From a virus, in the IMG/VR virus record IMGVR_UViG_3300042860_002342, positions 1 through 27,363 of that record: a DNA stretch of 27,363 nucleotides. The stretch is one strand, 5' to 3'. The notes below the pieces were generated by a model. That model did no database searches. It was not told the DNA's origin and was given only the letters and a program-made list of their open reading frames with translations. Both the position numbers and the translations under genes were made by a program. Shown piece after piece: positions 1 through 16,602 of the stretch (position 1 is the first letter of the stretch; each line of letters opens with the position of its first letter).

Positions 1-350
1 GTGCTGCCGATGCGGGTGGTCAGCATCCACAGGATCAACCAACTGACCAGCGCCGACTTGCCGATGCCGCGCCCCGACGCCGTCGCGTCCCGCAGCGCCT
101 GGAGGACCGCCGGGGCGTCGGCAGTAGCGTCGGCCCGGATCTCGCGGTTCTTGCGGATGTGGTTGGCCAGATCGCGCAGCACCCCGCGCTGCCACTTGCG
201 CGGGCCCTGGAAGTGCTCCAGCGGCGTGTTGGGCTGGCCCCACGGGAAGGCCAGCAACACGAACGCCTCAGGGTCGTCCTTGATCCGTGGCGACCACAGA
301 CGCGACATCAGCAACTGTTCGTCGTCTGGGCTGTAGATGGGCTTCTGCAT
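1..350 (-). CDS. Terminase large subunit, N-terminal part (runs off the left edge)
   Basis: This is the start of the phage DNA-packaging ATPase/nuclease that threads DNA into the prohead; about 116 residues are visible. The N-terminus (MQKPIYSPDDEQLL) leads into a phage-terminase-type FPWGQ segment. A Walker A-like stretch, SGRGIGKSALVSW, lies near residues 92-104, the usual place for the ATPase P-loop. The C-terminal ATPase and nuclease parts are outside the window. I chose ATG at 350 because the family usually begins with this YSPDxxxLM stretch; ATG at 308 is the alternative. No strong Shine-Dalgarno is seen, only GAGG about 15 nt upstream, so translation may be coupled to the small subunit, whose 3' end it overlaps by 83 nt. 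Confidence 0.88.
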   Translation of the reverse strand, partial: MQKPIYSPDDEQLLMSRLWSPRIKDDPEAFVLLAFPWGQPNTPLEHFQGPRKWQRGVLRDLANHIRKNREIRADATADAPAVLQALRDATASGRGIGKSALVSWLILWMLTTRIGS

Positions 351-768
351 ATGGGATCTGTTGGGCCTCAGTTACGTCAGTGGCTATGCCCTCGATCACG
401 CGCTCTTCCGCCTGCTTGAGCGCGGTGAGGATGCTGATCTGCTGGCTGACGTCCATCTGTATGTGCTGGGTCGCGGCCCAGTCGTGCTTGTGCTTGAGGA
501 CGTCGAGTGCCACCTTGGCGTCGCCCGCCAGCGCGGCGTTCATCATCACCTCGGACAACTGCGCTTCGGCGTCAGCGCGGCCTTTGGCCTCGGCCAGTTG
601 CGCCATCGGGTCGAATTCTTGCAAACGCCGCAGCTCGACGGGCAGCAGGTCAGCCTTTAAAGCCAGACTGTCGCCTTTGAGGCCCAGCCGCGCCGCCTCG
701 TAGATGCGGTTCAGCACGGCCTCAGTCGCCTTGATTTCGCGGACGGTGAGAGGGAGGCTCTTGAACAT
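268..768 (-). CDS. Terminase small subunit (probable)
   Basis: This 166-residue protein sits directly upstream of the large terminase gene in the same direction, the standard place for the small subunit that recognises the packaging site and loads DNA onto the ATPase. The N-terminal third (residues about 14-50, including AARLGLKGDSLALKA) reads like a helix-turn-helix, followed by an acidic/Ala-rich helical middle (KGRADAEAQ) and a segment around ALDVLKHKHDW typical of phage small terminases. The last 27 residues overlap the start of the large subunit and look low in conservation. The start at 768 lacks a clear Shine-Dalgarno and is preceded by a 6-bp hairpin at 770-791. Identification is by pattern and context. 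Confidence 0.75.
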   Translation of the reverse strand: MFKSLPLTVREIKATEAVLNRIYEAARLGLKGDSLALKADLLPVELRRLQEFDPMAQLAEAKGRADAEAQLSEVMMNAALAGDAKVALDVLKHKHDWAATQHIQMDVSQQISILTALKQAEERVIEGIATDVTEAQQIPYAEAHLQPRRRTVADVASVVATDQGRP

Positions 769-1055: not shown

Positions 1056-1145
1056 TCAGCGGCGCAGCCCGCGATTGCACCACCAGTTGCTAACAGGGAT
1101 GGCCAGGGGTGCGATTGCGATTGCCCAGATGATGATGGTGACCAT
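1056..1145 (-). CDS. Small membrane protein, 29 aa, unknown function
   Basis: A short frame encodes MVTIIIWAIAIAPLAIP followed by a polar, basic tail ending NRGLRR. It is one hydrophobic helix long enough to span a membrane, with a positive C-terminus, suggesting an N-out/C-in single-pass peptide. Support for expression is good: a strong Shine-Dalgarno (TAAGGAG, 1160-1154) lies 8 nt before the ATG, and a consensus-like promoter lies just upstream (1192-1221). It would be the first gene of the leftward transcript leading towards terminase. I do not recognise a family. Phage micro-membrane proteins can act in lysis timing, exclusion or host takeover, but nothing here discriminates between these. 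Confidence 0.5.
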   Translation of the reverse strand: MVTIIIWAIAIAPLAIPVSNWWCNRGLRR

Positions 1146-1191: not shown

Positions 1192-1221
1192 ATAATAGTT
1201 GAGCAGACGTCAGGCTGTCAA
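1192..1221 (-). promoter_or_regulatory. Leftward sigma70-type promoter
   Basis: On the minus strand a perfect -35 box TTGACA (1221-1216) is separated by 18 nt from TATTAT (1197-1192), a 5/6 match to the -10 consensus. Start of transcription is expected near 1185, followed by the palindrome at 1167-1184, the Shine-Dalgarno at 1160 and the 29-aa ORF. It probably drives that ORF and reads towards the terminase genes. Confidence 0.65.
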
Positions 1222-1290: not shown

Positions 1291-1369
1291 ACAGATATAT
1301 AGATCACAAATGCAATGTATCTGCCGTGCTGCCGAACAGATATATTGTATTTGGAATGCAATGTATCTG
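1291..1369. repeat. Two 33-34 bp direct repeats with dyad ends
   Basis: Unit 1 is 1291-1323 and unit 2 is 1336-1369. Both begin ACAGATATAT and end ATGCAATGTATCTG, with a variable middle; the starts are 45 bp apart. Within each unit the ends form an imperfect inverted repeat, CAGATA...TATCTG. This could be a pair of widely spaced dyad operators or iterons of a replication origin. The AT-rich tract at 1460-1530 lies about 100 bp away. Direct observation of the repeats is solid; the role is inference. Confidence 0.7.
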
Positions 1370-1370
1370 T

Positions 1371-1389
1371 TTTCCCGCATTGTGGGAAA
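1371..1389. repeat. Inverted repeat TTTCCC-N7-GGGAAA
   Basis: A perfect 6-bp dyad (1371-1376 and 1384-1389) with a 7-nt spacer directly follows the second 34-bp repeat. It could be another protein-binding site or a small hairpin. No gene overlaps it. Confidence 0.4.
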
Positions 1390-1419: not shown

Positions 1420-1439
1420 TACTGTATAGCTTTACAGTC
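1420..1439. promoter_or_regulatory. LexA (SOS) box, near consensus
   Basis: TACTGTATAGCTTTACAGTC contains CTGT-N8-ACAG (1422-1437), the exact core that LexA binds in beta/gammaproteobacteria, with the extended ACTGTA/TACAGT symmetry of strong E. coli sites. On the minus strand it overlaps the -10 of a plausible leftward promoter (TTGACC 1459-1454, 17-nt spacer, TGTAAA 1436-1431). Host LexA could therefore hold this promoter silent until DNA damage. The core match is seen directly; regulation is inferred from the known motif. Confidence 0.65.
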
Positions 1440-1459
1440 TTTTGGGTCGTTTGGGTCAA
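1431..1459 (-). promoter_or_regulatory. Candidate leftward promoter overlapping the LexA box
   Basis: TTGACC (1459-1454, 5/6 match to -35) is spaced 17 nt from TGTAAA (1436-1431, 4/6 match to -10). The -10 box lies inside the LexA site. The -10 match is weak and no gene starts immediately downstream, so this is a candidate only. Confidence 0.35.
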
Positions 1460-1653: not shown

Positions 1654-1682
1654 TTGACAGACTGCAAGACAATCTGTAGCAT
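1654..1682 (+). promoter_or_regulatory. Rightward early promoter with dyad in the spacer
   Basis: TTGACA (1654-1659, perfect -35) and TAGCAT (1677-1682, 4/6) are separated by the ideal 17 nt. ACAGA (1657-1661) and TCTGT (1673-1677) form a dyad that lies on the promoter itself. A further dyad, TCGCG-N7-CGCGA (1693-1709), lies just after the expected start at about 1689. It is well placed to drive the rightward early operon starting at 1764. Confidence 0.6.
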
Positions 1683-1763: not shown

Positions 1764-2465
1764 ATGCAAACACAACCTACCGGCCTGATCGTCTATGAAG
1801 GTCCGTCCCGCCTGGACGGGCAACCCATCGTCGCCATTCTCACCACGCATTCCGAGAACCGTAAGACGGGCGATATGTGCCAACTGTGGATCATTCGGTC
1901 CGACATGTCGCCAGTAGCCGCAATCAAAGCTGGTGCGGATGCATCCATCTGTGGTGATTGCATCCACCGCGGCGACGGCACGGGCGCCAAGCGTTCCTGC
2001 TACGTCAACGCAGGACATGCGCCCGGACAGATCTTCCGTTCCTATATTGACGGTCGCTACCCCGTAGCGACCGCGCAATCCCTGCGCGATGCCACCATTG
2101 GCCGCATGGTGCGCCTTGGCGCATACGGCGATCCCGCTGCGCTGCCGATCCGCACCATTCGCGCGGTTACCCGTCATGCCGACGGCTGGACGGGTTATTC
2201 GCACCAATGGCGCATCCGGCCGTCTTTGCGCCCCTTCGTCATGGCGAGCGTTGACACGCCGCAGGAAGCCGCACAGGCTCGCGCTAAGGGGTGGCGCTAC
2301 TTCCGCGTGTCACGCCTTGCCGATCGCGCTCAGGGTGAGGCGATCTGCCCTAGCGACAAAGGCATCCAATGCATTGACTGCGGTCACTGTAACGGTCATG
2401 CATCCGGGCGCCGCGGCTCCGTTGTCATTCAAGTGCACGGCTCTGGCGCCGTCCATTTCAACTAA
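1764..2465 (+). CDS. Conserved Cys-rich phage protein of unknown function
   Basis: This 233-residue protein opens the early operon. ATG at 1764 is chosen because AAGGAG lies 10 nt upstream; the frame is open to 1689 but without a ribosome site. Seven cysteines stand out: C63 and C66 (SICGDC), C79 (RSCY), C195, and C203/C206/C209 (CIDCGHC). This pattern suits a zinc site or an iron-sulfur cluster. A middle segment around residues 119-150 (GAYGDPA, then TGYSHQWR) is characteristic of a family I recall from phage genomes and plasmids, loosely like the mycobacteriophage gp88 group (possibly DUF7227). Function is unknown. As the first early gene it may be a host-takeover protein. Confidence 0.75.
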   Translation: MQTQPTGLIVYEGPSRLDGQPIVAILTTHSENRKTGDMCQLWIIRSDMSPVAAIKAGADASICGDCIHRGDGTGAKRSCYVNAGHAPGQIFRSYIDGRYPVATAQSLRDATIGRMVRLGAYGDPAALPIRTIRAVTRHADGWTGYSHQWRIRPSLRPFVMASVDTPQEAAQARAKGWRYFRVSRLADRAQGEAICPSDKGIQCIDCGHCNGHASGRRGSVVIQVHGSGAVHFN

Positions 2466-3020: not shown

Positions 3021-3347
3021 ATGAGAACCGCACGCTTGGACTACCGGCCCGGCACCACGCTGGCGCCCGTAGGCTTTCACAAGCCAAAACCCGACGCGCC
3101 CACGCCCCCGCGCAAAGCCCCCACAAAGGCTGCGCCAGAGCACAAGCCCGTGGAACTGGACGCCGACACGAGATCACGCCTTCGGAACCTTTTGGAAGTG
3201 CTTGGGACGCAGCAGACGGCACAGGCGCTCAGGACCTCCACCACGCACATAATGGACTGGTGGACCGGGCGCCGCCCGATTCCGGAAAGCATGCCTGCGA
3301 CCATCCGCAAGGTTCACAAGCTAATCATCGGCGAGGACGGACTATGA
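3021..3347 (+). CDS. Putative helix-turn-helix DNA-binding protein, 108 aa
   Basis: The first 45 residues are Pro/Lys/Ala-rich and probably disordered (KPKPDAPTPPRKAPTKAAPE). Residues about 48-100 look like a compact Cro/XRE-type helix-turn-helix: a first helix RSRLRNLLEVLG, then TQQTAQALRTSTTHIMDWWTG, followed by RRPIPESM, which resembles the turn after a recognition helix. It is the only candidate DNA-binding regulator in the early operon, so it may act on the dyads at 1167-1739. Its stop overlaps the next start (ATGA at 3344), implying translational coupling. The HTH call is by eye and could be wrong. Confidence 0.6.
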   Translation: MRTARLDYRPGTTLAPVGFHKPKPDAPTPPRKAPTKAAPEHKPVELDADTRSRLRNLLEVLGTQQTAQALRTSTTHIMDWWTGRRPIPESMPATIRKVHKLIIGEDGL

Positions 3348-11222: not shown

Positions 11223-11252
11223 ACTCTAGCGCAAGGCTTAGGGGTTGTGCAA
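11223..11252 (-). promoter_or_regulatory. Leftward promoter of the replication operon
   Basis: TTGCAC (11252-11247, 5/6) and TAGAGT (11228-11223, 4/6) are 18 nt apart on the minus strand, about 30 nt upstream of the first Shine-Dalgarno. An ACAC-T6-GTGT dyad (11252-11265) touches the -35 box and lies in the 90-bp gap between divergent operons, so one regulator could control both. Confidence 0.45.
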
Positions 11253-11280
11253 CACTTTTTTGTGTGGCAAGCTGTGCAGC

Positions 11281-11727
11281 ATGAACATACGACCTATCTC
11301 TCTAAAACAAGCGCAGGCGTTTGTGCGCGAACATCATCGGCACAACCGACCGCCGGTCGGCCACAAGTTCAGCGTCGGGTTGTTCCAAGGCGACGTCTGC
11401 ATTGGCGTCGCGGTTGCCGGACGCCCAATTGCGCGGATGCTGGATGACGGACTGACCCTAGAAGTGACACGGACGTGTACGGACGGCACCAAGAACGCCA
11501 ACTCCAAGTTATACGGCGCTATCGTCCGCGCTGCGACTGCGCTTGGGTACCGTCGTTGCATCACTTACACGCAGGCCGATGAGACCGGCGCTTCTCTGCG
11601 TGGCGCTGGGTGGACGCCTGTCGCACAGCTGGCGCCCCGCGCTGGCTGGGACGCCCCTAGCCGTCCTCGTACCGATATTCAAAGCGGGGGTGTGCCTCGC
11701 ATCCGATGGGAGCGCCGTTGTGCTTGA
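11281..11727 (+). CDS. XF1762 family protein, GNAT-like fold (probable)
   Basis: A 148-residue protein beginning MNIRPISLKQAQAFVREHHR. The series VGHKFSVGLFQGD, GVAVAGRPIARMLDDG, LEVTRTCTDGTKNANSKLY and the late SRPRTD motif are the hallmarks of the phage/prophage XF1762 family, whose layout resembles an N-acetyltransferase (GNAT) fold. No substrate is known to me. ATG 11281 fits the family start; the frame is open from TTG 11245, but no strong Shine-Dalgarno is seen for either. It is the first gene of a rightward operon and overlaps the VRR-NUC gene by 8 nt, suggesting coupled expression with DNA-processing enzymes. Confidence 0.85.
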   Translation: MNIRPISLKQAQAFVREHHRHNRPPVGHKFSVGLFQGDVCIGVAVAGRPIARMLDDGLTLEVTRTCTDGTKNANSKLYGAIVRAATALGYRRCITYTQADETGASLRGAGWTPVAQLAPRAGWDAPSRPRTDIQSGGVPRIRWERRCA

Positions 11728-15003: not shown

Positions 15004-16602
15004 CTATTCCACGACTAGTGCGTTTGTGGGGTCTTGAAAGTAAGGCGAGGACATGGCGCCCCTCGCCGCCGTAATCGGCACTGCGTCGAACGGCCCTTGA
15101 ATTATGCCGGGACGCTGGCCCAGCCGCATCTGTTCCGCCAGCCGATTGACGTCTCGGGTGCGCAGTTGCCCGCCCAGTTGACGGGCGGCAAGCCCCGCGC
15201 CTGCCAACCCAGCACCGTAAGGGCCAGAGACCGCGGTAAAGATAGCGGCGGCAGGCGTCATCGGCGTGAACTTAGCCACAACCCGCATCATGTCCTGCAA
15301 CTTGCCGCCCTTCGCCGCCGCCTTGATCTGCTCCTGCTCATCGGGCGTGAATACGCGCATGCGCCGCTTGTTGCGGGCCAGTTGTTGCAGCGCGGTCGTC
15401 AGCGCCTGCTCCTTGCCAGCAGTAGTAAAGTCGGCGTTCTCAATCATGTCCTGGAACACCTCGCTCTTCTTCATGCGAGAGTAGTCCTTCCGCGCCTGCT
15501 CCCACGCCTTGAGGACATCTGTGCGGCCCGCGACAATGTCGCTGGAAGGGGCGTTTACGATGTAGTCGTCAAAGCGGTCCATCAGTTCAGACGCGATTAG
15601 ACGCTCCTGCGCGTCTGTACTGCCTTTCGCGCCTTGAATCATCTTGCGCAGGCCTTGCAGTTCCGCCACGTCTTTAGGCATCGCAGCGGACATTTCCTCA
15701 ACTATCGCCGCGATGCGCGGATACGCCGTCGGCGTGTAGCCGACCGTGCGCCGCATGTCCGCTGCCTCGTTCGCCATGCGAGCAGCGAACTTGTCAGCGT
15801 CCATGCGGAAGCCAGACTTGTCGAGGATCTGATAGTTCTGCTTCGCTTTCTTGGTCAGATCTTCGGCGGACGGCACCGCCTCGCGCACCGTCTTGCGCAC
15901 CCCGGTCGCCCCGCCAGCTACAGTGCCCGCCGCCAAGCCCGCCAGCGGGCTGTCGGTGGCCTCGACCGTCGCCTGCCCTGCGACGCCTGCTGCCGGGGCC
16001 GCAATCATCTGCCGGGTCGGCTCTGCGCCAACCACACGCCCGACTGCCTGGGCGGCAGGGCGGGCAGAGCCTGCCAGCACCCGCGCAGCGCCGACCTGCG
16101 GCGCCGTGCCCAGCAGCGCCTCGGCGCCGGAGGAGAACACGCGCTCGCCTGCCGTCTCTGGTGTCGGCCCTGGCAGGTAATTGCGGATGATGTCGGACGG
16201 CAACCGCACCTGCCCGCCCATCAGCGCGTTGTACGCCATCACACCTGCGTCGGCGACGGGCACTGCCAGCCCGCCGATCAGCGCCCCCGCCGCCATGCCG
16301 GGAGGGCCCGCAGGAGATCCCAGCAGCGCCCCAGCCGTTGTACCAATGGCCGCAGGCGCAGCGGCTTTGCCTGCCAGACCTCCAAAGCGGGCGACGGTGC
16401 CCAACACACCCCGTTTTTGCGGCGCGGCGGCGGGCGCTGGGGCGCTTCCCGGCGACAAGAACTGCATGATCTCCTGCGACGAATAGCCTTCCTTCAGCGC
16501 CCGCTCGACCTTGGGGTCTTTGCTGCGTAGATGCTGAATGATCTCGTCGTCGGCGTAGCCTTGCCGCCGCGCTTCGTCTATCTGTGTCTGATAGTCAGCC
16601 AT
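15004..16602 (-). CDS. Internal virion/DNA-ejection protein, 532 aa (probable)
   Basis: An Ala/Gly-rich protein with an N-terminal helical repeat (GYADDEIIQHL and EGYSSQEIMQFL, similar short 'x-G-Y-S/A-x-x-E-I-x-x-(H/F)-L' units), a Gly/Ala-rich hydrophobic region (about 70-120) that could enter membranes, and a long helical C-terminus. It lies downstream of the gp7-like ejection gene and upstream of lysis, the slot of P22 gp16/gp20-like proteins that form the trans-envelope conduit. Assignment is by context and composition. The start at 16602 has no strong Shine-Dalgarno, and the gene is 9 nt after the previous stop. Confidence 0.65.
   Translation of the reverse strand: MADYQTQIDEARRQGYADDEIIQHLRSKDPKVERALKEGYSSQEIMQFLSPGSAPAPAAAPQKRGVLGTVARFGGLAGKAAAPAAIGTTAGALLGSPAGPPGMAAGALIGGLAVPVADAGVMAYNALMGGQVRLPSDIIRNYLPGPTPETAGERVFSSGAEALLGTAPQVGAARVLAGSARPAAQAVGRVVGAEPTRQMIAAPAAGVAGQATVEATDSPLAGLAAGTVAGGATGVRKTVREAVPSAEDLTKKAKQNYQILDKSGFRMDADKFAARMANEAADMRRTVGYTPTAYPRIAAIVEEMSAAMPKDVAELQGLRKMIQGAKGSTDAQERLIASELMDRFDDYIVNAPSSDIVAGRTDVLKAWEQARKDYSRMKKSEVFQDMIENADFTTAGKEQALTTALQQLARNKRRMRVFTPDEQEQIKAAAKGGKLQDMMRVVAKFTPMTPAAAIFTAVSGPYGAGLAGAGLAARQLGGQLRTRDVNRLAEQMRLGQRPGIIQGPFDAVPITAARGAMSSPYFQDPTNALVVE

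Follow-up and report, generated by a model that had tools for sequence, protein, structure and literature searches.

Direct control of phage promoters by the LexA protein of the host is known for a few temperate or filamentous phages, in which it couples induction to DNA damage. The antirepressors of temperate phages such as coliphage 186 (tum), N15 (antC) and the Gifsy and Fels-2 phages are repressed by LexA, and in CTXphi, a filamentous and integrating phage with a repressor of its own, RstR, LexA acts at a phage promoter. Closest in logic to the locus described here is the Bacillus thuringiensis betatectivirus GIL01, a non-integrating phage in which host LexA acts together with gp7 at promoter P1 (PMC4551915). 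The DNA analyzed in this study, a stretch of 27.4 kb from a virus record (the window), is a fragment of a freshwater P22-like podovirus which shares with GIL01 an SOS box among its control sequences and, judging by the records tested, in which neither an integrase (PF00589) nor a self-cleaving repressor was detected, the lack of a stress-sensitive repressor of its own and of chromosomal integration. However, GIL01 is temperate, linear and tailless, and its LexA acts at Gram-positive dinBoxes with a co-repressor, whereas the window phage has a CTGT-N8-ACAG box and no known gp7-like helper and probably differs in lifestyle, its lysogeny being at most putative. Judged by its sequence, the phage appears to work like a LexA-wired phage, while its membership of the GIL01-like lysogenic class is only putative. 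As in the phages with LexA-repressed antirepressors, a host LexA box would gate a phage promoter; in contrast to those phages, neither a CI-type repressor nor a lysogeny module was detected in the records tested for the window phage. With CTXphi the phage would have the direct use of host LexA in common, but not the filamentous form, the integration or an RstR.

In the window, the terminase region (3-768) is oriented leftward and the early genes run rightward from 1764, followed by leftward genes for a primase/helicase, DNA polymerase A and a DUF2800 exonuclease, by rightward genes for a Mom-like protein, a VRR-type nuclease and an SNF2 helicase, and then by lysis and structural genes. The Mom-like DNA modification protein is encoded at 11245-11727 (PHROG 1384, E=2e-38). 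Near-complete, collinear sequences exist for the close relatives G003 (41 kb) and G005 (38 kb); no close nucleotide relatives were found among named phages. Structural homologues are shared with three freshwater P22-like podoviruses, MW202483 (ctNMl277), which also shares TerL and DNA polymerase, OR003940 (DSL-LC05), which also shares TerL, and P26218, but a LexA-type site above 7.4 bits is absent from all three, thus also from MW202483 and OR003940 as the closest annotated phages. The box of the window phage is located in the space of roughly 1 kb which separates terS from the early genes (Table 1).

Table 1. Features of the control region and flanking genes (positions within the window).
Feature	Position	Strand	Description and basis
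terS, small terminase subunit	268..768	-	First large leftward gene; ORF; homologue directly before terL in relatives; no Pfam or PHROG match
Leftward promoter-like site	1192..1221	-	TTGACA-18-TATTAT (11/12); kept in L004, L005 and L007, not in L006
First conserved inverted repeat	1291..1323	.	ACAGATATATAGATCACAAATGCAATGTATCTG; may be an operator bound by a phage regulator; close-relative comparison
Second conserved inverted repeat	1335..1371	.	AACAGATATATTGTATTTGGAATGCAATGTATCTGTT; close-relative comparison
LexA (SOS) box	1420..1439	.	TACTGTATAGCTTTACAGTC; motif match and close relatives
Weak promoter-like site toward terS	1431..1459	-	Predicted; -35 TTGACC (1459-1454), 17-bp spacer, -10 TGTAAA (1436-1431) inside the box
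9-bp tandem doublet	1441..1458	.	TTTGGGTCG and TTTGGGTCA; adjoins the box; other words but same layout round boxes of relatives
Rightward promoter-like site	1654..1682	+	TTGACA-17-TAGCAT, ahead of the early genes; promoter scan
First large rightward early gene	1764..2465	+	PHROG 2554 (function unknown), E=1.9e-65
Small helix-turn-helix-like protein	3021..3347	+	By eye; no significant Pfam match

The initial annotation had described a near-perfect CTGT-N8-ACAG LexA site spanning 1420-1459. The motif is indeed present, but it is confined to the first 20 bases of this span on the plus strand, and bases 1440-1459 lie outside it. No other perfect CTGT-N8-ACAG occurs in the window (0.38 expected per Markov sequence of the same length), and the box matches the E. 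coli LexA consensus at 16 of 20 positions, while the best of 200 simulated windows reached 14; thus, the observation is right and the match is more than chance. The palindrome with its A/T-rich spacer has the form of a beta/gammaproteobacterial LexA operator. To score it against the likely host clade, lexA genes were collected from Burkholderiales genomes, their upstream regions were read, and a matrix was built from the boxes found there. Most of the collected genes with a recognizable lexA frame are preceded by boxes resembling TACTGTATA..TACAGTA, that is, this plausible host clade carries a CTGT-N8-ACAG-type motif at its lexA promoters. In one of them, the lexA promoter box CACTGTATAGCTTTACAGTA of L199, the 16-base core (CTGTATAGCTTTACAG) is identical to that of the window box; this site was omitted from the matrix used for scoring. 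The window box obtained 15.9 bits, the runner-up in the window 5.6 bits, and 0.0007 matches as good are expected per 580 bp of local composition. Scored leave-one-out, the Burkholderiales lexA boxes themselves range from 12.7 to 27.9 bits (median 22.6), so that the window box falls inside the range of the clade, conditional on a Burkholderiales host.

Such a host is probable from sequence comparison, as a Rhodoferax-MAG contig carries a collinear phage and as the lytic Rhodoferax phage P26218 has a homologous tail protein, which is 43% identical to that of the window phage. No proof came from CRISPR or prophages, and the host assignment is based on MAG contigs and on homologues that are scrambled within a single Burkholderiales contig of 4.2 Mb; each match among genome contigs is an individual contig, and the MAGs into which these were binned belong to several phyla. 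In the 4.2-Mb contig (G161 C1, 959-997 kb; L227-L229), homologues of the portal, tail and nuclease genes are fragmentary and reordered, and no integrase was found near them. This region is not convincing as a host prophage and represents either the decayed remains of a prophage or an artefact of the assembly.

The case for a LexA operator in the control region is stronger than could be known from the window alone, since the box recurs in many diverged relatives. It is identical in three close relatives (L002, L006 and L026), altered to TACTGTATGGGCTTACAGTC in L007 (10.3 bits) and degraded to TACTGTATGGCCATTCAGTG in L004 and L005, where its 2.9 bits are close to the chance level for such a region. 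When the region upstream of terS was scanned in TerL relatives with sufficient upstream DNA (65 contigs, from a scan of 600 candidates), 13 had a site of at least 12 bits in the terS/early-gene intergenic region, compared with a mean of 1.35 and a maximum of 5 for 20 column-permuted control matrices on the same contigs. Near-perfect boxes occur in nine contigs (L307, L287, L241, L305, L291, L235, L309, L237 and L282), and that of L307 and L287, TACTGTATATATATACAGTA, is identical to the E. coli consensus. Similarly, when each of the 256 possible half-sites of four bases was counted at 15 spacings, without LexA being assumed, LexA frames came out at the top (TACT-N12-AGTA, 10 versus 0.25 expected; CTGT-N8-ACAG, 13 versus 0.88 expected). 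After each 90% TerL cluster had been reduced to a single sequence (37), the LexA dyad still ranked first (8 versus 0.5 expected), and the four top dyads were all frames of one 20-mer. A scan of IMG/VR for TACTGTAN6TACAGTA returned, among the 80 matches listed, at least five in the TerL family, every one with its box near terS. In the phage contig of the Rhodoferax MAG (G010 C22), whose replication proteins are only 55-65% identical, the two best LexA matches also lie in the terS/early-gene intergenic region. Taken together, simulation, matrix score, family recurrence and the unbiased dyad count rule out a chance match.

In the TerL tree, the boxed contigs are spread across several deep lineages, while contigs with a TerL near-identical to that of L287 are without a box, indicating that the site turns over quickly and is recurrent yet labile. 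Its retention across relatives is nevertheless above chance, as for a LexA operator, despite the loss in some close relatives. The box is unique in most genomes scanned, and for these it can be ruled out that it belongs to a phage promoter motif occurring in several copies. In G263 (the L368 contig), two sites partly resemble the box, one intragenic and one in a gap before a 255-aa ORF. The latter, TACTGTATAGATTTACACCC (L435, 16106-16125), is located in the short gap ahead of the ORF at 16164, and a TTGACA-16-TATAGA promoter-like match was seen over it by eye. As the best overall explanation, which includes repression until the SOS response, we regard 1420-1439 as an operator for the LexA protein of the bacterial host, with a probability of roughly 0.55; binding of host LexA to the box, taken by itself, is considerably more probable than this and is likely.

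The box had also been proposed to overlap the -10 element of a leftward promoter. A TGTAAA hexamer does lie within the box, but the corresponding TTGACC-17-TGTAAA match is weak (score 7.4; shuffle p=0.11). The two better promoter-like sites (Table 1) are not overlapped by the box, each being about 200 bp away; a rightward-type site similar to that of the window (TTGACA-16-TACAAT) is visible in G010 C22. Just past the leftward one, a possible 29-aa leftward ORF was noted by eye (1056-1145, minus strand), whose ribosome-binding stretch AAGGAGCGCA mirrors that ahead of the gene at 1764. Across the boxes of the family, promoter-like sites beneath the box score slightly above shuffles in the direction of terS (Fisher p=0.01, with rows that are not independent) but not in the direction of the early genes (p=0.59), which weakly points to a terS-directed promoter under the box. 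There is about an even chance that LexA represses a promoter there. In an undamaged cell, LexA dimers would occupy the box, which is central in the divergent control region and adjoins the phage-specific 9-bp repeats, and would repress transcription starting under it, most likely toward terS and the packaging and late genes; bound LexA might also restrain origin firing in the iteron-rich region. Single-stranded DNA, arising from damage or from phage replication, would cause RecA to make LexA cleave itself and would so lift the block. The phage would in this way couple one step of its programme to the SOS state of the host without a repressor of its own. Since the near-ideal boxes are mostly without a convincing overlapping promoter, they might instead serve as decoys, many replicating genomes titrating LexA and thereby switching on the repair and nucleotide-supply genes of the host. 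However, one box per genome adds few sites compared with the LexA pool of a cell, and a decoy would not need a fixed location in the control region, so that we consider this very improbable.

The surroundings of the box are rich in further repeats. The inverted repeats at 1291-1371 (CAGATATAT...ATGTATCTG) are better conserved in the close clade than the LexA box and are candidate operators of a phage regulator. In many phages of the family, 9-bp tandem repeats surround the box, often inverted between its two sides, with a word that varies (TTTAGGTCA, TGTGGGCAA, TGTGGACAA, TTTGGGTCA and others). Upstream of terS in L282, L237, L239, L278 and others, the word of the doublet differs between phages but its layout is constant, possibly reflecting a fast-evolving specificity of an initiator or repressor. 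This suggests that the repeats serve as iterons for an initiator encoded by the phage or as operators for one of its regulators. Given a control region so rich in fast-changing operator-like words, the palindrome could itself be the operator of a phage-encoded repressor, which reads a LexA-like sequence by accident or has evolved to share the operators of the host, and by eye several relatives seem to have a different palindrome at the place of the LexA box. Yet the consensus that recurs agrees with LexA even at the outer TA and the inner TAT positions, the records tested yielded neither an S24 nor an HTH_3 protein, and the helix-turn-helix-like protein of the window was not found in the box-bearing G010 C22. 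We regard such an operator as unlikely.

The position between clusters of iteron-like 9-bp tandem repeats would also fit an A+T-rich palindrome of the replication origin, whose likeness to a LexA site is incidental or at which LexA acts on replication instead of transcription. DnaA-box-like repeats occur in one relative, G010 C22, where clusters resembling TGTGGACAA/TTATCCACA flank the two LexA-like sites (L231, 4130-4560), and another, MW202483, encodes a stand-alone DnaA domain IV protein (L083, 31423-31719; Bac_DnaA_C, E=1e-17) and has TGTAAAC/GTTTATGTAAACA words repeated in its control region. As a general partner of the 9-bp repeats, this protein was discarded, being present in only 1 of 27 records. 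Matches to host DnaA boxes are at chance level, the entire window containing only five with one mismatch, and the cumulative GC skew is inconsistent between genomes; neither marks the box in all of them. As the domain is absent from the 26 other records and the skew is inconsistent, an origin at the box is hypothetical. Moreover, an incidental likeness would not account for a LexA consensus that is perfect in several lineages which have diverged, and we consider an origin element still less probable than an operator of a phage repressor.

With regard to lifestyle, no tyrosine integrase (PF00589) was found in the window, G003, G005, two annotated phages and 17 family records, in a search which covered PF00589 only. 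HTH_3 domains were absent from the window, G003, G005 and the two annotated phages, and S24 peptidases from the 17 family records, which do not include the window. For G003, 47 proteins were scanned against all of Pfam, and the first 25 of the 37 matched families were listed. Thus, the statement of the initial annotation that no CI-like repressor adjoins the box agrees with these searches, while its comparison to temperate phages does not extend to the lifestyle: as the family records tested contained neither an integrase nor an S24 repressor, ordinary lysogeny and the temperance of the window phage are unsupported. The relative DSL-LC05 is predicted to be virulent (PMC10611076), and Rhodoferax phage P26218 is lytic (PMC4657236).

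It might be speculated that the phage instead persists extrachromosomally by lysogeny of the GIL01 type, with host LexA, perhaps together with a phage co-repressor, as the sole repressor and SOS as the inducing signal. The SOS box in the control region and the lack of detected integrases and S24 repressors in the records tested are what such a phage would have, and iteron-like repeats could support plasmid maintenance. However, a site which is gained and lost among near-identical phages would be intolerable as the sole lysogeny switch, and the published relatives are described as lytic or virulent. A comparison of the primase and TerL with plasmids provided no convincing phage-plasmid relatives either, as none of the plasmid records contains a genuine primase relative and the TerL matches on plasmids are below 60%. 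Lysogeny of this kind is therefore rather unlikely, if the least so of the alternatives.

No earlier report of LexA sites in virulent phages was found in the literature searched, most subscription journals being outside it. At somewhat less than even odds, we tentatively propose for the family that freshwater P22-like podoviruses in which neither an integrase nor a self-cleaving repressor is detectable use host LexA in their control or origin region, repeatedly gaining and losing the site, and that virulent phages in this way time late expression or replication by the DNA-damage state of the cell. The family offers boxed and box-less close relatives for comparison, and lexA mutants provide an easy genetic test. 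The recurrence of a LexA-type box in phages in which integrases and self-cleaving repressors were not detected may mean that apparently lytic viruses sense the DNA-damage alarm of their hosts. If so, SOS control would extend from temperate and filamentous phages to apparently lytic infection, raising the question of whether infections take a different course depending on the SOS state of the freshwater host, for instance following exposure to UV.
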